Shown here in pieces: positions 3,106 to 32,051 of a DNA stretch of 42,387 nt. The DNA is from a virus, in the IMG/VR virus record IMGVR_UViG_3300031399_000380, positions 1 through 42,387 of that record. One strand, 5' to 3'. Position numbers and translations under genes: made by a program. Below the pieces are notes generated by a model. It ran no database searches, was not told where the DNA came from, and saw nothing but the letters and a program-made list of their open reading frames with translations. Within the stretch, counting starts at the first letter, position 1; every line of letters begins with the position of its first letter.

Positions 3106-5545
3106 ATGGCCATCAAGAAAAGCGACATCTACCGGTCCCTCTGGGAAAGCTGCGACCAGCTGCGCGGCGGCATGGATGCCTCGCTCTACAAGGATTACAT
3201 CCTCACGCTGCTCTTCGTGAAATACGTCTCGGACCGCGCAGGCCAGCCTGACGCGCTCATCGAGGTGCCGGCCGGGGCATCTTTCGCGGACATGAAAGCC
3301 CTGCGCGGGACCAAGAATATCGGGGAGGGTATCGACACGATCATCGCCAGCATCGCCGAGGAAAACGACCTGAGCGGTGTGATCGATCGGGCCTTCTTCA
3401 ACGACCCCGAGAAATTCGGGCGCGGCACTAAGATGATCAATACCCTGACCGCGCTGATCAACATATTCAGCCGGGAAGAACTGAACTTTTCCAGGAACCG
3501 TGCCGGTGGCGACGACATCTTGGGCGATGCCTTATTACTTGATGCGCAACTTCGCGACCGAGGCGGGCAAATCCAAGGGCCAGTTCTATACCCCGGCCGA
3601 GGTCTCCCGCGTCGTGGCGGCGGTGGCGGGGGTCAGCCGCGCGGCCAGCCCGAAACAGGCGGTTTATGATCCGACCTGCGGGTCCGGATCTCTGCTGCTC
3701 AAGGCCGCGGAATACGCCGATGTGCCCATATCGATCTTCGGGCAGGAGATGGATATCGCCACCCGCGGCCTCGCGCGGATGAACATGATCATGCACAACC
3801 GCGAAACCGCTGAGATTGCGCAGGGCGATGTGATCGCCGAGCCGCATTTCATGGCTGGCGACCAGACGCTCCAGACATTCGATTTCGTGGTGGCCAACCC
3901 GCCCTTCTCGGCCAAGGCTTGGGCCTCGGGCCTGACCGAGGATACGAAATGCGGGCGCTTCGATGATGGCGAGCCGCCCGCCAAGAATGGTGATTTCGCG
4001 TTCCTGCTGCACATACTCGCCTCGATGAAGGCCACAGGCTCCGGCGCGGTGATCCTGCCGCATGGCGTGTTGTTCCGCGGCAATGCTGAATCCCGCCTGC
4101 GCGAGAAGATCCTCAAGCGCGGCTACATAAAGGGCATTATCGGCCTGCCCCCGAACCTGTTCTATGGCACCGGCATTCCCGCCTCGATCATCGTGCTGGA
4201 CAAGTCGGCAGCCTGCGAAAATCGACCCGTCTTCATGATCGATGCCTCCAAGGCCTTCATCAAGGACGGCAACAAGAACCGCCTGCGGGCACGCGACATC
4301 CACAAGATCACGGACGCCTTTACCAAGGCGCTCGAAATCCCCGGATATTCGCGGCTTGTCCCCTTTGCCGAGATCGCCCGCAACGACTTCAACCTGAACA
4401 TCCCGCGCTACATCGACGGGTCCGACCCCGAAGATCTGCAGGACATCACGGCGCACCTGCATGGCGGCGTGCCGGAACGCGATATCGATGCGCTTGCTGA
4501 TTTCTGGGATGTCATGCCCACCCTGCGCGCCACGCTTTTCGGGCCAAACCCGCGCAGCGGTTACGCCGACCCGCTGGTTGCTCCCGAGGAGGTACGCACC
4601 ACCATCCGCAATCACCCCGATTTCGCGGCGTTCCGGGCGACCATCCAGACCATCCTCGACGGCTGGATCACTGCGAACACGCCTGCGTTGACCGGCATCG
4701 AGACAGGCGACCGCCCCAACCATCTGATCCACAGCATCGCCGAGGATATACTGGCTTGCTTCGCTGCCGCCCCGCTGATCGACAAATACGAGGCCTATCA
4801 GCGTCTGATGTCCTATTGGGTGGAAACCATGCAGGATGATGTGTTCATCATCGCGGGCGCAGGCTGGGGCGCGGCACGAGAGTTGCGCGAGGCGCGCAAG
4901 GAAACCGGCACGGACGGCAAGACCAAATGGCTGGAGGATGGTGATCTGACGGTGAACAAGGTGCGCCTTGTGGCCGATGTCATCCCGCCCGCATTGATCA
5001 CCGCACGGTTCTTTCCGGATCTGCAAGAAGAGATCGACACCGCCAAGGCACGGGCCGAGGAACTGGGCCGCGAGATCGAGGAACTGAGCGAGGAGCACGG
5101 AGCCGAGGGCGGACTGCTGGAATTGGCCCTGACCGATGCCGGCAAACTGACCGCCGCATCGGTCAAGGCGCGCGACAAATCAGACGAGGCGGATGCCGAG
5201 GAACGCCCGCTGCTGAAACAGGCCGCCAAGCTGATCGCGGCCGAGGCGGCAGCGAAGAAAGCTGCGAAAGAGGCCGAGGCGCGACTGACCGAGGCGGTGC
5301 TGAAAAAATATCCCGAGCTGACCGAAGACGAGATCCGCGCGCTTGTGGTGCAGGACAAATGGCTGGCTGACATCGCGGCGGCCATCGGGGCCGAGGTCGA
5401 GGCGCGGACCGAGGGGCTGACCGCCCGCGTGCGGGTGCTGACCGAACGCTATGGCCAGACCCTACCGCAAATCATGGAGAATCTGGAGGCGCTGGAGGCG
5501 CGGGTGGCCGGGCATCTGGCGGCGATGGGGGTAGCGCATGAGTAA
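3106..5545 (+). pseudogene. hsdM: Type I restriction-modification system methyltransferase subunit HsdM, frameshifted
   Basis: HsdM normally forms an M2S complex with HsdS and methylates adenine N6 in the target. The first frame (3106 on) gives the HsdM N-terminal helical domain up to DDILGDA; the second frame (open to 5545) continues with YYLMRNFATEAGKSKGQFYT. The family usually reads DILGDAYEYLMR here, so about two bases are missing near 3531-3536. The second frame holds motif I (DPTCGSG, about 3668) and motif IV (NPPF, 3896), then an extended C-terminal coiled coil rich in Glu, Lys and Ala. Combined length would be about 813 residues, longer than typical HsdM because of that coiled coil. 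A GTG at 3500 could restart translation and give a 681-aa catalytic fragment, so a split but active protein is possible. The 146 bp upstream are AT-richer; I could not fix a promoter. Confidence 0.8.
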
Positions 5546-12356: not shown

Positions 12357-13619
12357 ATGGACCTTGTCTTCGCGCCAAGCGAGATCGAGACGTGGCCGAT
12401 CGACCGGCTGCGCCCCTATGCCCGCAATGCCAAGATGCACGGCGACGACCAGGTGGCGAAGATCGCCTCCAGCATGGCAAAGTTCGGCTGGACAGTGCCC
12501 TGCATGGTGGCCGACGATGGCGAGCTGATCGCCGGGCATGGCCGGGTGCTGGCGGCAACCATGCTGGGGCTGAGCGAGGTGCCGGTGATCCGGCTTGGTC
12601 ATCTCGACGAGGCGGAACGCCGGGCCTACCGGATCGCCGACAACAAGCTCACCGAGCTGGGCGAGTGGGACGAGGCTATGCTGCGCGACGAGATCGCGGG
12701 GTTGCTGGCAGAGGATTTCGACCTGACGCTGCTGGGCATCACCGACGAGGACCTCGATGCGCTGCTGCAGGACCCCGAGGCGCTGGGTGGGGATGGCCCG
12801 GTTGAGGGGGAAGACGATGTGCCGGAGGCTCCGGTCACGCCGGTATCTGTCGCGGGCGACCTTTGGCAACTCGGTGCGCACCGGCTGATCTGCGGCGACA
12901 GCACGTCCGCCGATGTGATCGGACAGCTGCTGGGCGATGTGAAACCTCAGCTGATGGTCACCGACCCGCCCTATGGCGTCGCGTATGATCCAGGCTGGCG
13001 CAACCAGGCGGGCGCGGCCAGCACCAAGCGCACGGGCAAGGTGCTGAACGACGACCGCGCCGACTGGCGCGAGGCCTGGGCGTTGTTTCCGGGCGATGTC
13101 GCCTATGTCTGGCATGGCGCGCTGCATGCCGGAGAGGTGGCCGACAGCCTGACCGCGTCGGGCTTCGCCATCCGGTCGCAGATCATCTGGGCGAAGGACC
13201 GGCTGGTGCTCAGCCGCGGCGATTACCACTGGCAGCACGAGCCCTGCTGGTATGCCGTGCGCGCAAAGGGAAAGGGGCATTGGGCGGGGGATCGCAAGCA
13301 GACGACGCTGTGGCAGATCGCCAGCCGCGATCAGGATGCCGAGACCGTGCACGGCACGCAGAAGCCAGTGGAGTGCATGCGCCGCCCGATCCTGAACAAC
13401 TCGGCCCCCGGTCAGGCGGTCTATGAGCCCTTCATGGGATCCGGGACCACGCTGATCGCAGTGGAAACCACCGGGCGCGTCTGCTACGGTGTCGAGCTGA
13501 ACCCGGCCTATGTCGATGTCGCCATCGAGCGTTGGCAAGCCTTCACCGGCGAGGACGCGGTCCTGACGGAGACCGGCGAGAGTTTCGTGGCGCTGAAGGC
13601 GAAGAGGCTTGCCGCATGA
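12357..13619 (+). CDS. ParB-domain DNA methyltransferase, DPPY type (first of a tandem pair)
   Basis: 420 aa. Residues 10-125 are a ParB/Srx-like N-terminal domain (RPYARNAKMH, GELIAGHGRV, YRIADNKLTELGEWDE). Residues about 165-415 are an amino-DNA methyltransferase of the PF01555 type: catalytic motif IV DPPYG near 202-206 comes before the SAM-binding motif EPFMGSGTTLIAVE near 360-373, the order of the beta class. It should methylate adenine N6 or cytosine N4 in DNA; DPPY favours adenine. Typical of Rhodobacterales prophages, where it sits before the terminase genes. Its role (protection from restriction, or marking DNA for packaging) is not known. The stop overlaps the start of its paralogue (ATGA). 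Confidence 0.9.
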   Translation: MDLVFAPSEIETWPIDRLRPYARNAKMHGDDQVAKIASSMAKFGWTVPCMVADDGELIAGHGRVLAATMLGLSEVPVIRLGHLDEAERRAYRIADNKLTELGEWDEAMLRDEIAGLLAEDFDLTLLGITDEDLDALLQDPEALGGDGPVEGEDDVPEAPVTPVSVAGDLWQLGAHRLICGDSTSADVIGQLLGDVKPQLMVTDPPYGVAYDPGWRNQAGAASTKRTGKVLNDDRADWREAWALFPGDVAYVWHGALHAGEVADSLTASGFAIRSQIIWAKDRLVLSRGDYHWQHEPCWYAVRAKGKGHWAGDRKQTTLWQIASRDQDAETVHGTQKPVECMRRPILNNSAPGQAVYEPFMGSGTTLIAVETTGRVCYGVELNPAYVDVAIERWQAFTGEDAVLTETGESFVALKAKRLAA

Positions 13620-17521: not shown

Positions 17522-18076
17522 ATGGAAGGTCTCTCTGAGCGTGCCTATGCCGCGCATTCCAGGCTCTCGCGCGGGGCCGTGCAGAAAGCGCGCAAGACGG
17601 GGCGGCTGGTGCTGTATCCGGACGGCTCGATCAACGCGGCCGCCTCGGATGCGCGGCGAGCAGAGATGACGGATCCGGATCAGCAGCACAGGTCCGCGGG
17701 TGGTGTCGGGAATGGCGACACGGCTGGCGCGGTTTCCGGTCCCGGCGACAGCGCCTCGTATCTGAAGGCCCGCACAGCGCTGACGGTCTACCAGGCGCAG
17801 GAGCGTCAGCTATCGATCCAGCGCAAGAAGGGCGTTCTGGTGGATCGCGCGCGGGCCGAGACGCTGGTCTTCCGCCTCGCGCGGCAGGAGCGCGATGTCT
17901 GGGTGACCTGGCCCACGCGCGTGGCCGCCTTGATGGCCGCGCAACTGGCCGCAGAGATGGAAGCCGCATCAGGGGAGGCCGTGACGATCGAGACGGCGAT
18001 CCTGCAAAGGGTGCTGGAAGCGCATGTCCGAGAGCAGCTCACCGCCCTCGCAGACCTCCGGGTCTCGCTTGAATGA
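17522..18076 (+). CDS. Terminase small subunit, Nu1-like
   Basis: 184 aa. The N-terminus reads like a short winged-helix DNA-binding unit (ERAYAAHSRLSRGAVQKARK), and the second half is helical with a coiled-coil pattern (LTVYQAQERQLSIQRKKG, RARAETLVFRLARQERD). It sits just before the large terminase and overlaps it by 53 bases, the arrangement of lambda Nu1/A. It should bind the packaging site on concatemeric phage DNA and bring in the large subunit. The packaging site itself was not located. Confidence 0.8.
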   Translation: MEGLSERAYAAHSRLSRGAVQKARKTGRLVLYPDGSINAAASDARRAEMTDPDQQHRSAGGVGNGDTAGAVSGPGDSASYLKARTALTVYQAQERQLSIQRKKGVLVDRARAETLVFRLARQERDVWVTWPTRVAALMAAQLAAEMEAASGEAVTIETAILQRVLEAHVREQLTALADLRVSLE

Positions 18077-20066
18077 CGGACATCATGACGAGGGATTGAA
18101 CGGCGACGACCTGACCGCGGACCTTGATCTCGGCTTTGAGGGCGCCGAGGTCATCCTGCGCGCCTGGCGGCGCGGCCTAGGTCCCGATCCGGATCTGACC
18201 GTGTCGGGCTGGGCGGATGCGCATCGCTGGCTGTCGTCGCGCGCCTCGGCCGAACCCGGGCGGTACCGCACCGTGCGCACGCCCTACCTGCGCGCCATCA
18301 TGGATGCGCTGTCACCCGGCCACTCCGCACAGCGGATCTCGTTCATGAAAGCCGCGCAGGTGGGCGCGACCGAGGCCGGCAACAACTGGATCGGGTTCGT
18401 GATCCACCACGCGCCGGGGCCGATGCTGGCGGTGTTGCCCACGGTGGAAATGGCCAAGCGCAGCTCGCGCGGGCGGATCGATCCGCTGATCGAGGACAGC
18501 GCGGCGCTGAAGGAGCGCGTCAGGCCCGCGCGCTCGCGGGACGCGGGCAATTCGATGCTGTCCAAGGAGTTCCCCGGCGGCATCCTCGTGCTCACCGGGG
18601 CCAACTCGGCCACCGGCCTGCGCTCGATGCCGGCGCGTTACGTGTTTCTCGACGAGGTCGATGCCTATCCGGCCTCGGCCGACGAGGAGGGTGACCCGGT
18701 CACGCTGGCCGAAGCCCGCACCACCACCTTCGCGCATCGGCGCAAGGTGTTCATGGTCTCGACGCCGACCATCCGCGGGCTGAGCCGCATCGAGCGCGAG
18801 TTCGAGGCCAGCGACCAGCGGCGGTATTTCGTGCCGTGCCCGCATTGCAAGGCGATGCAGTGGCTGCAGTTCGAGCGGCTGCGCTGGGACAAGGACCAGC
18901 CGGAGACCGCAGCCTACCATTGCGAGGGCTGCGCGCGCCCCATCGCCGAGCATCACAAGACGGCGATGCTGGAACGGGGCGAGTGGCGGGCAACAGCGAC
19001 GGCGACGGACCCGACGGCCATCGGGTTCCACCTCTCGGCGCTCTACTCACCGATCGGCTGGAAAAGCTGGGCGCAGATCGCGCGCGACTGGCTGGCAGCA
19101 CAAGGCTCGGACGAGATGCTGCGCGCGGCGCGCAACACGCTGCTGGGCGAGACATGGGTCGAGAGCGGCGAGGCGCCGGACTGGCAGCGGCTCGCGGACC
19201 GGCGCGAGACCTATCCGGCACAGATCCCGGAACAGGGTCTGTTCCTGACCGCCGGCGCGGATGTGCAGAAGGATCGCATCGAGGTCGATGTCTGGGCCTG
19301 GGGTCGAGGTCTGGAAAGCTGGCTCGTGGATCACATCGTGATCCCGGGTGGGCCTGACGATCCCGCCTGCTGGGAGACGCTGACGGCACTGCTGGGCCGT
19401 ACATGGACGCACGAGAAGGGCGCGGTCATGACATTGGCGAAACTCGCCATCGATACCGGCTACGAGTCCGCCGCCGTCCATGCCTGGGCGCGTCAGCAGG
19501 GCACGGCGCAGGTGGCGCCGGTCAAGGGGCTGGAAGGCTTCAACCGGGCGACGCCGGTCTCGGGGCCGACCTTCGTCGATGCCACGGTAAACGGCCGCAA
19601 GCTGAAACGCGGCGCGCGGCTCTGGAGCGTGGCCACCGCCACCTTCAAGGCCGAGACCTATCGCTATCTGCGGCTGGAGCGCGCGACAGAGGAAGAGGCA
19701 CCCAACCCGGCCGGCACGATCCACCTGCCTGACTGGGCCGACAGCGAATGGCTGAAACAGCTGGTCGCCGAGCAGCTGGTCACGATCCGCAACAAGCGCG
19801 GCTACGCCCGGCAGGAATGGCAGAAGATGCGCGAGCGCAACGAGGCGCTCGATATCCGCATCTATGCAAGGGCTGCGGCGTGGATCCTCGGCGCGGACCG
19901 GTTCGACGCGCGGATGTGGCAGAGCCTCGAGAAACAGGCCGGGGTGGAGACCGCCACCCCCGAGCCGGACGCGGCACCCGAGACACCCACCGAGCCGCAA
20001 GCGGGGCGCGTGACCACACCCCGGCGACGCGGCTGGCGGGTGAGCACGCCCAAGTACATGGAATGA
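18024..20066 (+). CDS. Terminase large subunit, GpA family
   Basis: 680 aa; lambda gpA is 641. The packaging motor and nuclease: it translocates DNA into the prohead with ATP and cuts it. Walker A-like MKAAQVGATEAGNN is at about 108-121, Walker B VFLDEVDAY at about 211-219, a zinc-ribbon pair CPHC ... CEGC at about 272-300, and the nuclease domain begins with GADVQKDRIEVDVW near 413. The last 50 residues are a variable Pro/Thr-rich tail. The start overlaps the small subunit; a later start is possible but the N-terminal 30 residues are the only uncertain part. The stop overlaps the gpW-like gene (ATGA). Confidence 0.95.
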   Translation: MSESSSPPSQTSGSRLNDGHHDEGLNGDDLTADLDLGFEGAEVILRAWRRGLGPDPDLTVSGWADAHRWLSSRASAEPGRYRTVRTPYLRAIMDALSPGHSAQRISFMKAAQVGATEAGNNWIGFVIHHAPGPMLAVLPTVEMAKRSSRGRIDPLIEDSAALKERVRPARSRDAGNSMLSKEFPGGILVLTGANSATGLRSMPARYVFLDEVDAYPASADEEGDPVTLAEARTTTFAHRRKVFMVSTPTIRGLSRIEREFEASDQRRYFVPCPHCKAMQWLQFERLRWDKDQPETAAYHCEGCARPIAEHHKTAMLERGEWRATATATDPTAIGFHLSALYSPIGWKSWAQIARDWLAAQGSDEMLRAARNTLLGETWVESGEAPDWQRLADRRETYPAQIPEQGLFLTAGADVQKDRIEVDVWAWGRGLESWLVDHIVIPGGPDDPACWETLTALLGRTWTHEKGAVMTLAKLAIDTGYESAAVHAWARQQGTAQVAPVKGLEGFNRATPVSGPTFVDATVNGRKLKRGARLWSVATATFKAETYRYLRLERATEEEAPNPAGTIHLPDWADSEWLKQLVAEQLVTIRNKRGYARQEWQKMRERNEALDIRIYARAAAWILGADRFDARMWQSLEKQAGVETATPEPDAAPETPTEPQAGRVTTPRRRGWRVSTPKYME

Positions 20067-27055: not shown

Positions 27056-27481
27056 ATGCCCTCGACCCGCGAGACGATCCTTGCAGCGCTGACGGCGCAG
27101 CTGGCCGCGCGCGCAGGCGCCGAGGTGCGGCGCAACGCGATGCTGCCGGAGCGGGTGCCGGCCGAAGGGCTGGTGATCCTGCGCGACGGCAATCCTGGCG
27201 AGCCGGATGTGACGCTGAGCCCGTGGCGGGCCTACTACCGCCACCGCGTGGAGATCGAGGCGTTCATGCCGCCGGGCGCGGCGGAGGCGGCGCTCGACGG
27301 GCTCTTGGCCCGCATCGGGGCCGCGCTGGCGCATGACGACAGCCTCGGTGGGCGGGTGGAGCTGATGACGCCCTCGGCGCCGGAGCTGCAGCCGGTGCCG
27401 GTGGAAGGCGGCGCGCCGTTTCTGGCGGCCGCGCTGGCGGTCACGCTGGAATACCAGGTCAGCGACCCGCTGAGCGGGTGA
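27056..27481 (+). CDS. Tail terminator/completion protein (gpU-like)
   Basis: 141 aa, ATG with GGAG 9 bases upstream. It resumes the plus-strand morphogenesis genes after the minus-strand morons. N-terminal helix (RETILAALTAQLAARAGAEV), then an alpha/beta part with RVEIEAFMPPGAAEAALDGL and a final strand TLEYQVSDPLSG. Size, order and fold pattern fit the protein that caps the tail tube at the head-proximal end. Confidence 0.7.
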   Translation: MPSTRETILAALTAQLAARAGAEVRRNAMLPERVPAEGLVILRDGNPGEPDVTLSPWRAYYRHRVEIEAFMPPGAAEAALDGLLARIGAALAHDDSLGGRVELMTPSAPELQPVPVEGGAPFLAAALAVTLEYQVSDPLSG

Positions 27482-27543
27482 GCGCGCCGGACAGGCGCGG
27501 CCATCTCGAGACATCACATCTGCACATCACAGGGAGGATCAGC

Positions 27544-28815
27544 ATGGGCAAGCAACGCGCCTATGGCGCCGATGCCACACTCAGGGCCGTGCGCGAGACG
27601 CAGTATGGCGGGGCCACCACGGGCCCGGTGCGGGCGCTCGACTTCAAGACGGCGGATCTGTCGGCGAGCATCCCGCTCGGCGACGACCCGCTGCTGGGGC
27701 GCGGGCGCAACGCGCAGGACCCGTATCGCGGGCTTGTCACCGATGAGGGCCAGCTGGAGATCCCGTTCGATCTGCAGGGCACCGGCTGGTGGATGACGGC
27801 GCTGTTCGGCGATCCGCAGACCACGTCGCAGGCAGCCGCGGGACGGATCACCTTCGCGGATAATCCTGTGCCGGGCGACACGCTCACGCTGAACGGCGTG
27901 GCCTGGACCTTTGTTGCCGGGGTTGCTTCGGGCGACGAGACCGAGATCGGCGCGACGCTGGCCGATACGCTCGCAGCGCTGGCCTCGGATCTCAACGCCG
28001 CCACTGATCCCGCCATCGCGGTCGCGAGCTACACGGTCGAGGATGACACGGCGCTGGTGATCACCCATGACGCCACTGGCCCCGACGGCAATGCCTTCAC
28101 GCTGGACGCCTCGGCCGCACAGCGCGCCACCCCCACGCTCACCGGTGGCGGCTATCGCCATGTCTGGCGCAGCGGGGCCGACAGCATCCCGTCCTTCCTG
28201 ATCGAGATCGGGCATCCCAAGCTCACCACCCCGGTCTTCTTTCGCCATGCGGGCGCGGTGCTGGAGGAGCTGTCGTTTCAGATGGGCCAGGAAGGACCGG
28301 CCAATGCCACCGTCTCGGTCGTGGCGCAGGGCGAGGAGACCGCGCATGCGACGCTGGACGCAAACCCCGCCGCCTTTGCGCTGCGCCGTTTCAGCCAGGG
28401 GCGCGGACGCATCGCGCGGGCAGGATCACCGCTGGCGGGGGTCACGGCCGGATCGCTGACCTTCTCCAACGGCATCGAGCGGGTGCGGTCGATCCGCGAG
28501 GATGGCCGCATCGATGGCGCCGATCCGACCCTTGCTACCTGCGAGGGATCGCTGACCGTGCGCTTCGATGGCGAGACGCTGATGGCTGAAGCCGCCAGCG
28601 GCGATCCGGTCGCGCTGGTCTACGGCTTTGCGATGGCCGAGGGCTATGCGCTCAGCTTCACCCTGCCGCGGGTCTACCTGCCCAAGCCGAAGTATTCGAT
28701 CACCGGCCCCGCCGGGGTCGAGGCGAGTTTCGACTGGCGCGCCGCCGCCGATGCGACCGGCGTGATGCTCGAGGTCGCGCTTCTCAACGATATCCCAACC
28801 CATGGAGACCCTTGA
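27544..28815 (+). CDS. Major tail tube protein with an inserted domain
   Basis: 423 aa from the ATG at 27544 (GGGAGG 7 bases upstream). Forms the tail tube through which DNA passes. It begins MGKQRAYGADATLRAVRETQ and ends ASFDWRAAADATGVMLEVAL, typical of tube proteins in this phage group. Residues about 103-220 are an extra domain (NPVPGDTLTLNGVAWTF ... GATLADTLAALASDLNAATD ... TGPDGNAFTLDASAA), an adhesin-like beta module probably displayed outside the tube. This makes the protein much longer than simple tube proteins. Confidence 0.88.
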   Translation: MGKQRAYGADATLRAVRETQYGGATTGPVRALDFKTADLSASIPLGDDPLLGRGRNAQDPYRGLVTDEGQLEIPFDLQGTGWWMTALFGDPQTTSQAAAGRITFADNPVPGDTLTLNGVAWTFVAGVASGDETEIGATLADTLAALASDLNAATDPAIAVASYTVEDDTALVITHDATGPDGNAFTLDASAAQRATPTLTGGGYRHVWRSGADSIPSFLIEIGHPKLTTPVFFRHAGAVLEELSFQMGQEGPANATVSVVAQGEETAHATLDANPAAFALRRFSQGRGRIARAGSPLAGVTAGSLTFSNGIERVRSIREDGRIDGADPTLATCEGSLTVRFDGETLMAEAASGDPVALVYGFAMAEGYALSFTLPRVYLPKPKYSITGPAGVEASFDWRAAADATGVMLEVALLNDIPTHGDP

Positions 28816-29264
28816 TGATCCGTCTCGACCTGTCCGCGTCGCCCGACTGGCTCGATCTCGGCCACGGTGTGCAGCTGCGCGTGGCCCCCATAACCACCTC
28901 ACTGATGAACCGGGCCCGCGAGGAGCCGATCCTCGCGGAGCTGCCGGAAGAGGCCAGCGCGAACCGGCGCGGCATAGCCCTCGCAAAGGCGCTGGCGCGG
29001 GTGGCCGTGGATGACTGGGCCGGCGTGCATGACGCCGAAGACGCGCCGGCCGAACTCACCCCCGAAGGGCTCGACGCGCTGCTGGAGATCGTGCCGATCT
29101 TCGAGGCGTTCCAGCTGCGCTACGTGGCGCCGGGCCTGCATCTGGAGCAGGAAAAAAACGCCTCAGCGCCCTCGCCGAGTGGCACTTCGGCGGGGGCGCG
29201 CAATACTGCAACAACTGCCCGCACATCTGCCAAGCCTGCCCGGCGCGGCAAAACGCGCCGCTGA
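28815..29264 (+). CDS. Tail assembly chaperone, short form (gpG-like)
   Basis: 149 aa from the ATG at 28815 (TGATG overlap with the tube gene). Lambda gpG-type chaperones bind tape measure and tube proteins while the tail forms. Residues 1-115 are the shared domain (LDLGHGVQLRVAPITTSLMN, ELTPEGLDALLEIVPIFEAF). After the slippery site near residue 113-115 the zero frame continues into a low-complexity Ser/Thr/Ala and basic tail with no conservation pattern, as expected if the main role of the distal DNA is in the other frame. Confidence 0.85.
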   Translation: MIRLDLSASPDWLDLGHGVQLRVAPITTSLMNRAREEPILAELPEEASANRRGIALAKALARVAVDDWAGVHDAEDAPAELTPEGLDALLEIVPIFEAFQLRYVAPGLHLEQEKNASAPSPSGTSAGARNTATTARTSAKPARRGKTRR

Positions 29265-29482
29265 CGCGCGAGGGCACACTGGCCTGGGATGTCGCGCAGG
29301 CGGCCACGGGACAGTTGCGGGTCGCCGAGGGCGCGGTGCTCGGCTGGGAGATGGGTGCGGTGCTGGCCATGGCCACGGCTGCCGGGCTCGATCCACGTGC
29401 GGCTGTCGAGCTGCTGCCGGTGATAGAGGTGGCGATGGCGCGCGCGGTCAACGCGCAGATCCGGGCGCAACGCCCGCAGTGA
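28815..29482 (+). CDS. Tail assembly chaperone, frameshifted long form (gpGT-like)
   Basis: Predicted 222 aa: 115 codons to 29159, then a -1 shift (base 29159 read again) and 107 residues to TGA at 29482. The -1 frame has no start codon of its own at its beginning, is open with high-GC third positions, and reads RLSALAEWHFGGGAQYCNNC, then PHICQACPARQNAPLTREGT and a helical end in VAMARAVNAQIRAQRPQ. The CxxC-x3-CxxC cluster could bind zinc. Gene order (tube, chaperone pair, tape measure) is where this frameshift is conserved in long-tailed phages. Confidence 0.8.
29144..29198 (+). promoter_or_regulatory. Programmed -1 frameshift signal of the tail chaperone
   Basis: Slippery heptamer A-AAA-AAC at 29153-29159, in the right phase (gaa aaa aac in the zero frame). 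Seven bases later a hairpin begins: CGCCCTCGCCGA (29167-29178) pairs with TCGGCGGGGGCG (29187-29198), 12 pairs with one G-U and an 8-base loop. GGAG (29144-29147) upstream could act as an internal Shine-Dalgarno stimulator. All three classical elements are present. Confidence 0.85.
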
Positions 29483-29525
29483 ACACACACGTCGTCAAAC
29501 TTGAACGAAATCGGGGGTCAGCAGG

Positions 29526-32051
29526 ATGACCAGCGCGACCAAACAGGTCACGGTGCGGCTGGCGGCCGAGGGCGGCCGGCAGGTGCGCGCCGAGCTCAGG
29601 GGGATCGGCGCGGACGGCGCCACCGCGTTCCAGCGGCTGAGCTCGGAAATGGAAGCCGCCAATGCGCGCGCCGACCGGTTCTTTCGCCGGCTGCGGATCG
29701 CGGCCGCGGCAGGTGCTGCGGCCGTGGGTGCTGCGGCCACGGCGATGATCCGCAGCGGGCTGCAGGTCGTCGACAGCCAGGCCAAGCTGGCGCAGTCGCT
29801 GGGCACCACGGTCGCCTCGATCCAGACGCTGGAGCGCGCGGGCGAGCTGGCGGGCGTGTCGATGTCGGGGATCGAGCAGGCCACCAAGGATCTGACGCGC
29901 CGTCTCAGCCAGGCCGCGGCAGGCACCGGTCCCGCGGCGGACGCGCTGGACCGGCTGGGGCTGTCGGCCACCGAGCTGATCGCGCTGCCGCTCGATGCGC
30001 GTGTGGGGGCGATCAACGCCGCCATCGAGGAGTTCGTTCCCGCTGCCGAGCGGGCAGCGGTGGCGGGCCAGCTCTTCGGCGAGGAAGGCTCCATCGCCAT
30101 GGGCCGGATCGACAGCGCCACGCTGCGCCAGGCGACGAAGGACGTGCGCGCCTTCGGGGTGGTGGTGTCTGCGCAGGATGCCGCACAGATCGAGCGGACC
30201 AACGATGCGATCTCGCGGCTGGGGCTGATCTGGCGCGGGCTGGCCAACCAGCTCGCGGTCGCGGCGGCCCCGGCGCTCGAGGCCGTGGCCGACGCGATGG
30301 AGGCACTCGCGGAACGCAGCGGCCCGGTGGGCCGGGCCATAGAGCTTGTTCTGGGCAATCTCGACCGGCTGGCGGCCACGCTCGCGGCCGTTGCGGGGCT
30401 GGTGGCCGGGCGCTTTGTCGCCGGGCTTGCGGTTGCAGCTGTCAGCGTGCGCGGGCTGGCCACGGCGCTGGCGCTGCTGCGCGGGGTGCTCATACGGCTG
30501 CCCTTCGTGGCGCTGGTGATCGGGGCACAGGAGCTGATCCTGCGCTTTGGCCGGTTGGTCGCGGCGGCGGGGAGCTTCTCCGACGCCCTCGATCTCATGC
30601 GCGGCGTGGCCAGGGATGTCTGGGACCGGATGGGCACTGGCGCTCGGGCGCTCGGGGCGACGGTGGCGGCAGTATGGGCGGGAATTCGCGCCAGCGTGGC
30701 CGACGGGGTGCAGGCCAGTCTCGATGCGGTCGCGCGCGGGGCCTCGCTGATCATCAACACCTGGCGCGGGGCGTTCGCGGCGATCCGCACAATCTGGTCC
30801 GATCTGCCGGTAGTGCTGGGCGAGGTCGTGACCGGTGCGGCCAATGCCATGGTACGCGGCGTGGAGCGAATGCTGAACGCGGTGATCGGGCGCGTGAACC
30901 GCTTCATCGCCGGCATCAACACGGTGCTTGGCGCATTGCCGGCATGGGCCGTGGGCGATGGCGGGCTGCGCATCGGGACGCTGGACGATGTCAGCCTCGC
31001 GGGATTCGAGAACCGGTTCGCGGGCGCGGCGCGCGATGCCGGCGGCCGGGCGGCCGAGGCGTTCACGCAGGCCTTCGAGAAGGACTACCGGATCCCGGAT
31101 CTGGGGCTCGGGGCCTATGCCGCGGACGCCCGCGCCACGCAGGACGCCCTGCGCGGGGTGGCCGACGAACTGCGCGCCGCAGCAACCGGGCCGCTGGAGT
31201 CGGTCGAGGCGATCCGGGAGGTGCTGGCGCAGACCTCGGAGGCTGCCGAGGGGGCGGCGGAGTCGGTGGCCGGGATCGGGGACGCCTTCGATGGCGTCTC
31301 CGGTGCTGGCAAGGACGGTGCAGCAGGCGGCAGCAGTTCTGGCGGCGCGGCTGGTCGTGCTGCCGAGGCCGCGACGACTGCCGGCAACGCGATTGCGGCG
31401 GCGAGCGAGACGGCGGCGCGGGGCTGGAATGCGGTCGCAGACAGCCTGCAGGGCTATGCCGACAGTGCGATGGAGACCGGCCGGCAGATCGGCGAGGCGT
31501 TGGTCAGCGCGTTTCGCGGCGCCGAGGACGCGCTTCTGACGCTGGTCACGAAGGGCAAGGTGGATTTCCGCGATCTGGCGAACTCGATCCTGGAGGACAT
31601 CACCCGCATCGCGCTGCGCTCGGCGGTGCTCGGCCCCCTCGCCAACTGGCTGGGCGGTGCGCTTGGCGGGATCGGGGGCGGTCTTGGAGGTAGCCTGGGC
31701 GGCAGCCTCACCGCGGCGGTGGCGCATTCCGGCGGCGTGATCGGCGTCTCGGCACTGCCGAAGCGGCAGGTGCCGGCCATGGCCTTCGCCGGGGCGGAGC
31801 GGTTCCATGGTGGCGGTTATCCCGGTCTTCGCCCCGACGAGGTTCCCGCGATCCTGCAGCGCGGCGAGCGGGTGCTGTCGCGCCGCGAGGTCGCCGAGGG
31901 GCAGCGCGGTGGTGACGGCGTCCGCGGCGATGGCGGTGTGACCGTCAACATGACGATCTCCACGCCCGATGCCGACAGCTTCCGCCGGTCGCAGGGCCAG
32001 ATCACCGCCGAGATGAGCCGCGCCATCGCGCGGGCGCGGCGGAATCGGTAG
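29526..32051 (+). CDS. Tail tape measure protein
   Basis: 841 aa. Sets tail length and is packed inside the tube. Helical throughout, with a coiled-coil start (LRGIGADGATAFQRLSSEME), hydrophobic segments in the middle (about 280-345, AATLAAVAGLVAGRFVAGLA) that may enter the host membrane, an Ala/Gly-rich part (600-660), and a C-terminal domain with DFRDLANSILEDITRIALRS, a glycine-rich stretch and GGGYPGLRPDEVPAILQRGE, the usual end of the lambda gpH/GTA-type family. Begins 44 bases after the chaperone stop. Confidence 0.93.
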   Translation: MTSATKQVTVRLAAEGGRQVRAELRGIGADGATAFQRLSSEMEAANARADRFFRRLRIAAAAGAAAVGAAATAMIRSGLQVVDSQAKLAQSLGTTVASIQTLERAGELAGVSMSGIEQATKDLTRRLSQAAAGTGPAADALDRLGLSATELIALPLDARVGAINAAIEEFVPAAERAAVAGQLFGEEGSIAMGRIDSATLRQATKDVRAFGVVVSAQDAAQIERTNDAISRLGLIWRGLANQLAVAAAPALEAVADAMEALAERSGPVGRAIELVLGNLDRLAATLAAVAGLVAGRFVAGLAVAAVSVRGLATALALLRGVLIRLPFVALVIGAQELILRFGRLVAAAGSFSDALDLMRGVARDVWDRMGTGARALGATVAAVWAGIRASVADGVQASLDAVARGASLIINTWRGAFAAIRTIWSDLPVVLGEVVTGAANAMVRGVERMLNAVIGRVNRFIAGINTVLGALPAWAVGDGGLRIGTLDDVSLAGFENRFAGAARDAGGRAAEAFTQAFEKDYRIPDLGLGAYAADARATQDALRGVADELRAAATGPLESVEAIREVLAQTSEAAEGAAESVAGIGDAFDGVSGAGKDGAAGGSSSGGAAGRAAEAATTAGNAIAAASETAARGWNAVADSLQGYADSAMETGRQIGEALVSAFRGAEDALLTLVTKGKVDFRDLANSILEDITRIALRSAVLGPLANWLGGALGGIGGGLGGSLGGSLTAAVAHSGGVIGVSALPKRQVPAMAFAGAERFHGGGYPGLRPDEVPAILQRGERVLSRREVAEGQRGGDGVRGDGGVTVNMTISTPDADSFRRSQGQITAEMSRAIARARRNR

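Follow-up and report, generated by a model that had tools for sequence, protein, structure and literature searches.

A lambda G/GT-type tail chaperone gene with a strongly supported programmed −1 frameshift and a predicted four-cysteine metal site in the frameshift product

The tail chaperone region and the four-cysteine site

The window analysed here is the whole of a virus record of 42,387 bases. Its genes follow siphophage order, with terminase (18024–20066), portal, protease and capsid succeeded by the tail genes. Elsewhere in the window three separate genes, at 1047–2309, 3500–5545 and 12357–13619, match phage DNA methyltransferase families, and the last of these has in addition a ParB-like nuclease part. 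The tail genes and frameshift elements described below are all on the plus strand. A tail assembly chaperone of 149 aa (28815–29264; phrog_313, E = 5.9e-18) is encoded between the gene for the tail tube protein (27478–28815; PF18906, Phage_tube_2, 5.8e-43), which overlaps the chaperone start codon by 1 base, and that for the tape measure protein (29526–32051; phrog_8462, 1.7e-148; PF09718, 4.5e-21). This is the position occupied by G/GT in lambda. The conserved domain of the G-like chaperone comprises its first 115 aa and the remainder is a non-conserved tail. The AF2 model of this domain has a pLDDT of 91.7, and its comparison with the PDB using VIA gave only two chains at Z ≥ 2, namely YqbN (3klu; Z 5.2, rmsd 4.5 Å, 95 aligned) and the HK97 tail assembly chaperone (2ob9; Z 4.2, rmsd 5.2 Å, 89 aligned). 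These matches to the model are weak and the values low, yet both proteins come from phage tail modules. The zero-frame stop lies just one codon past the slippery heptamer described below in 17 of 120 distinct contexts (in the window it is 34 codons on), which shows that the phage can do without this tail.

The −1 frame is open from 29033 to 29482. Read from the heptamer it gives a T-like extension of 107 aa (29159–29482), beginning RLSALAEWHFGGGAQYCNNCPHICQACPARQNAP..., and the predicted fusion has 115 + 107 = 222 aa. The AF2 model of the extension, made with no metal, has an overall pLDDT of 92.1, the cysteine loop (73–80) being its least confident part. The region 29324–29470 matches Pfam DUF7697 (PF24752) at 67.2 bits, well past the gathering cut-off of 27, as well as phrog_11212 (1.7e-16); all 55 of 55 family members match DUF7697. 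Both models begin 3′ of the cysteines and may well be truncated pieces of the frameshift product, originating from gene callers unable to join the frames. Six of 55 relatives also match DUF1799 (PF08809) at E ≤ 0.01. The window's own extension gives no match to this family at E ≤ 1, and on these comparisons we treat it as a distant relative of DUF1799 and not as a member. Its best fold match in BFVD is the chaperone of Enterobacter phage F20 (probability 1.00, TM 0.60, E 0.012). A PDB search yielded no sequence relatives, and the fold relatives proposed there by Foldseek and VIA were rejected as weak (best Z 4.3, AhpD-like, rmsd 7 Å). Two DUF1799-type extensions are themselves repetitive: that of L269 has a series of imperfect ENCLQ/ENCSQ pentapeptides, so that every fifth residue is a cysteine, and that of L271 has NTYQNTCQNTC repeats.

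The four-cysteine site, C-x2-C-x3-C-x2-C-P (29207–29239), belongs to the frameshift product only. In the numbering of the extension it reads C17-x2-C20-x3-C24-x2-C27, exactly the CxxC-x3-CxxC cluster noticed in the preliminary description, and the conservation check proposed there gave a clear answer: C17, C20 and C27 are present in all 125 distinct extensions and C24 in 124. Distant relatives keep the first CxxC and the final CP around a longer intervening loop (YCQGCQDEYAACSTRKLNPGDRPCP in L257, YCKACRRFNIEYKEDMCPQGSC in L260), and the spacing past the second cysteine ranges among relatives from 3 to about 13 residues. Since the CxxC and CP are kept while the length of the loop varies, the site would be well suited to binding a metal, and most likely the predicted Cys4 site holds one zinc ion in a structural role. 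A longer cluster with five cysteines, resembling CNNCTQICPQVCEACP, is seen in L015, L021, L029 and L031, which are closely related to the window.

It could also be that the frameshift is real and the cysteines hold an iron–sulfur cluster or form disulfides, although we regard this as unlikely. Some Fe–S motifs do resemble the compact CxxC-x3-CxxCP, and the lambda tail-tip protein gpL has been reported to hold a 4Fe–4S cluster. A spacing that varies from 3 to about 13 residues is, however, usual for a structural zinc site, and disulfides are improbable because the cytoplasm is reducing. We give little credence to a further idea, that tail initiation is metal- or redox-dependent, with only the metal-loaded G–T fusion starting polymerisation, and that the Cys4 site would thus switch assembly on and not simply hold a structural zinc. 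We found nothing relevant in the open-licence literature on cysteines or zinc in the extensions of tail chaperones. As far as we have found, two points are new: the Cys4 site distinguishes the DUF7697 branch within a wider T domain encoded through frameshifting, whose DUF1799/T1-like branch has the same heptamer and is without the site, and DUF7697 and phrog_11212 correspond to truncated parts of a frameshift product. The restriction of a Cys4 site to the frameshifted protein of a single T-domain branch may be undescribed.

The slippery heptamer, the stem-loop and the frame under selection

The heptamer A_AAA_AAC (29153–29159) is in the correct phase, as previously claimed, the zero-frame codons being GAA AAA AAC. 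By itself it proves little, since AAAAAAC occurs five times in the window against an expectation of 0.7. Relatives were gathered through the resemblance of their proteins to the extension (80 viral loci, 80 genome loci and records from a phage collection), the heptamer being outside the query except for its last base. Of 120 distinct contexts, 118 have a heptamer at the identical position, which is AAAAAAC in 96, GGGAAAC in 18, AAAAAAA in 3 and AAAAAAG in 1; the other two have GAAAAAC and a site containing an N. A check that used no peptide seed, in which a profile of the extension matched 12 of 289 alphaproteobacterial species genomes, gave 11 assessable loci of distant relatives, ten of which retain the heptamer (AAAAAAC 8, GGGAAAC 2). 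A second viral scan, by profile, recovered the same loci. At the eleventh locus, L260, a strong stem and four cysteines are kept and the heptamer is replaced by the non-canonical G_GGG_GAA. The alternation of GGGAAAC with AAAAAAC is what tandem slippage requires and we have counted it in favour of the frameshift.

The presence of a second tRNA-Lys in the hosts was considered as a reason why the second codon is AAC and not AAG. Of 8 host genomes, 6 matched a tRNA pattern, and ARAGORN confirmed tRNA-Lys(CUU) genes, but neither of the Rhodobacterales genomes tried had a match, and the idea was set aside. In E. coli, A_AAA_AAC shifts less readily than A_AAA_AAG (PMC5009743), so that the efficiency of shifting in the host of this phage is uncertain.

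Downstream of the heptamer and a spacer of 6 bases (29160–29165), within the 5–9 nt at which a stimulator is sought, lies a stem-loop (29166–29199) whose best fold has 14 bp and a 6-nt loop, the arms being 29166–29179 and 29186–29199. Its predicted energy is −30.2 kcal/mol (z −4.2), and none of 200 shuffled sequences was equally stable. The preliminary description had the same stem as a 12-bp hairpin with an 8-base loop and a 7-base spacer; the stem stands and its dimensions change, as the best fold adds one pair at each end. The alignment from heptamer to stem is free of gaps in 95 sequences, and pairing is possible at 91% of all positions in the 14-bp stem compared with 44–54% when the stem is slid by 1–3 columns. 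The covariation alignment that had been suggested as a test thus gave a positive result: all 500 of 500 shuffles had lower scores, and double changes are seen at 4 pairs. The RNAalifold consensus has 10 bp with a bulge, and there was no Rfam match within 28800–29600. Strong stems of differing sequence are found in distant relatives, for example L255, L259 and L260.

The stem-loop overlaps the WHFGGG motif of the extension (29180–29197), in which W, H, F and the two outer G are shared by all 125 distinct extensions and the middle G by 123. Most of the relatives were fetched by a query that included AEWHFGGG, and the raw conservation of the stem is therefore inflated by amino acid constraint. 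This was meant to be removed by a synonymous test, in which the sequence of each of 97 relatives was compared with synonymous recodings of its own peptide. The mean MFE is −26.9 against −18.7 for the recodings (mean z −2.45), with p ≤ 0.05 in 80% of the 97 relatives; for three control regions in the same gene the mean z is −0.02, −0.27 and −0.51. Individual codons show the same preference for pairing. Leu5 is encoded by CTC or CTT in 82 of 82 sequences and never by CTG, which makes up 52% of Leu codons elsewhere, and the Gly codon facing it is GGG in 72 of 97 compared with 17% elsewhere. Of the 13 sequences in which Leu5 is changed to Arg (CGC), 12 have GGC as the opposite Gly codon, so here an amino acid change is compensated across the stem by a silent one. 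The stem is, on the evidence of these sequences, far stronger than the encoded peptide requires, indicating that the RNA structure is under selection.

The E. coli dnaX cassette uses an upstream Shine–Dalgarno stimulator, which has no conserved counterpart here. The GGAG previously pointed out as SD-like is literally present (29144–29147), but only 11 of 92 distinct relatives have it at the same distance, and the anti-SD pairing upstream of the heptamer, at −4.55 kcal/mol, hardly exceeds the −4.23 kcal/mol obtained after shuffling the order of the codons. GGAG was therefore rejected as a stimulator and is probably incidental, and the cassette does not belong to the three-element dnaX type.

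Joining of the frames by transcriptional slippage, in which RNA polymerase stutters on the A run and adds or omits one A, seems to us very improbable. The window does have a run of seven A, and bacterial transcription is known to slip on such runs (PMC5009743). It was rejected because the 18 of 120 distinct relatives with GGGAAAC at the same position, and likewise the distant L256 and L259, have only three A in a row; moreover, slippage of the polymerase gives no role to the conserved RNA hairpin at its 6-nt spacing.

Nonsynonymous and synonymous codon differences were compared over the 17 codons that follow the heptamer; their ratio is 0.79 when these are read in −1 but 5.64 when they are read in the zero frame, which indicates that the frame under selection after the heptamer is −1. 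An absence of conservation of the heptamer or of the −1 frame had been named among the grounds for giving up the frameshift, and both are conserved. The observation that the product has no start codon of its own also holds, as the first ATG, GTG or TTG in the frame is the TTG at 29315, past the fourth cysteine, and only 1 of 120 distinct relatives has such a codon within −1 codons 1–28. These data bear on the suggestion that the −1 frame is a separate gene with an internal start, for example TTG 29315, and that the frames are never joined. In its favour, Nostoc phage Nsp-JY21 (L083) and Synechococcus phage Sc-Yong805-1 (L084) are annotated with two genes, and the Pfam and PHROG models span only the region past such a start. 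The most conserved part of the extension, WHFGGG and the four cysteines, nevertheless precedes any start codon and the first 17 codons already evolve as −1 frame protein, so that the suggestion was rejected as extremely improbable. In L084 the upstream tail gene carries the annotation ‘tyrosine recombinase XerD’, which the position of the gene makes doubtful.

That one continuous gene has been split by a mistake in sequencing or assembling the A run has a negligible probability, for while homopolymers are error-prone and the related locus L066/L097 (Chelatococcus sambhunathii) does have an extra A, the same relation of the frames in more than 100 independent contigs and genomes, including those with GGGAAAC, refutes it. 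The extra A in L066/L097 breaks the upstream zero frame and could be an assembly slip or a sign of a decaying prophage.

Proposed mechanism and its significance

The gene is very probably of the lambda G/GT type with a programmed −1 frameshift, which we infer here, leading to the 222-aa G–T fusion. The majority of ribosomes would translate 28815–29264 to give the 149-aa G-like chaperone. A minority would be slowed by the 14-bp hairpin with tRNA-Lys and tRNA-Asn on A_AAA_AAC and would slip back by one base, the pairing AAA-AAC becoming AAA-AAA, and reading in −1 would then give the fusion. By analogy with lambda, the G part would coat the tape measure protein, and recruitment of tail-tube subunits would fall to the rare T part. 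In this branch the T part opens with an amphipathic helix and the Cys4 site, most likely binding one zinc ion, which would fix the joint between the G and T domains. We infer the frequency of the shift, the roles of G and T and the zinc.

Overall, a real and selected programmed −1 frameshift of an ordinary kind is strongly supported, given the conserved heptamer and RNA stem, the selection on the −1 frame, the chaperone families and the gene order. One stretch is read as protein (WHFGGG) and at the same time selected as an RNA stimulator, and the locus is a clean and deeply conserved example of this. The analysis also connects two Pfam families of unknown function, DUF7697 and at a greater distance DUF1799, with the T domain that tail chaperones gain by frameshifting; this origin explains why members of such families resemble short ORFs without a parent gene and are divided or overlooked by annotators. 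As lambda T and the sister branch lack the invariant Cys4 site, it provides a specific and easily tested handle on the role of the T domain.

Comparison with known systems

Frameshifted G/GT tail chaperones are widespread (PMC5009743). The lambda pair is alike in lying ahead of the tape measure gene, in having a −1 shift near the end of the upstream ORF and in having a C-terminal domain with no start of its own. It differs in its heptamer, G_GGA_AAG, and its T domain has no sequence relation to the window's extension and no cysteines, in keeping with the initial impression that the zinc-like cluster is foreign to the lambda protein. E. coli dnaX shares the heptamer followed by a 3′ hairpin, its site being A_AAA_AAG (PMC5009743).

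The DUF1799-type extensions of Alphaproteobacteria prophages (L267, L268, L270–L277) lie in the −1 frame behind the same A_AAA_AAC, or once behind G_GGA_AAC. Nine such alphaproteobacterial loci were read (AAAAAAC 8, GGGAAAC 1) and have a zero-frame TGA or TAA directly after the heptamer, whereas in the window the stop is 34 codons on; these extensions have no CxxC pair. The ‘tape measure chaperone’ of the T1-like Enterobacter phage F20 is also behind A_AAA_AAC and contains TQWRIGMNGPTGLDYN without cysteines. Acinetobacter phage Loki has an AAAAAAC frameshift site in its tail chaperone gp12/gp13 (PMC5313236). There is a fold match to the window's extension, but the Loki site is directly at the gp12 stop codon and the extension is free of cysteines.

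The closest parallel is found in Rhodobacter phage RcKai and its relatives (RcBaka, RcDormio, RcOceanus and others), which have the same gene order, the stem and the four cysteines. Their zero-frame and −1-frame proteins are homologous to those of the window, at about 36% and 50% identity respectively, and in RcKai the heptamer is GGGAAAC in place of AAAAAAC. PMC8601537 mentions for these phages the programmed frameshift that is usual in tail chaperone genes and says nothing of the four cysteines. The public record of RcKai already joins the two frames of this pair into one annotated gene. So clear a cassette is thus less of a rarity than had been supposed at the outset, relatives such as RcKai having the joined gene in public records and AAAAAAC chaperone sites having been published for other phages (PMC5313236); since RcKai already carries the same cassette, the mechanism is not new.
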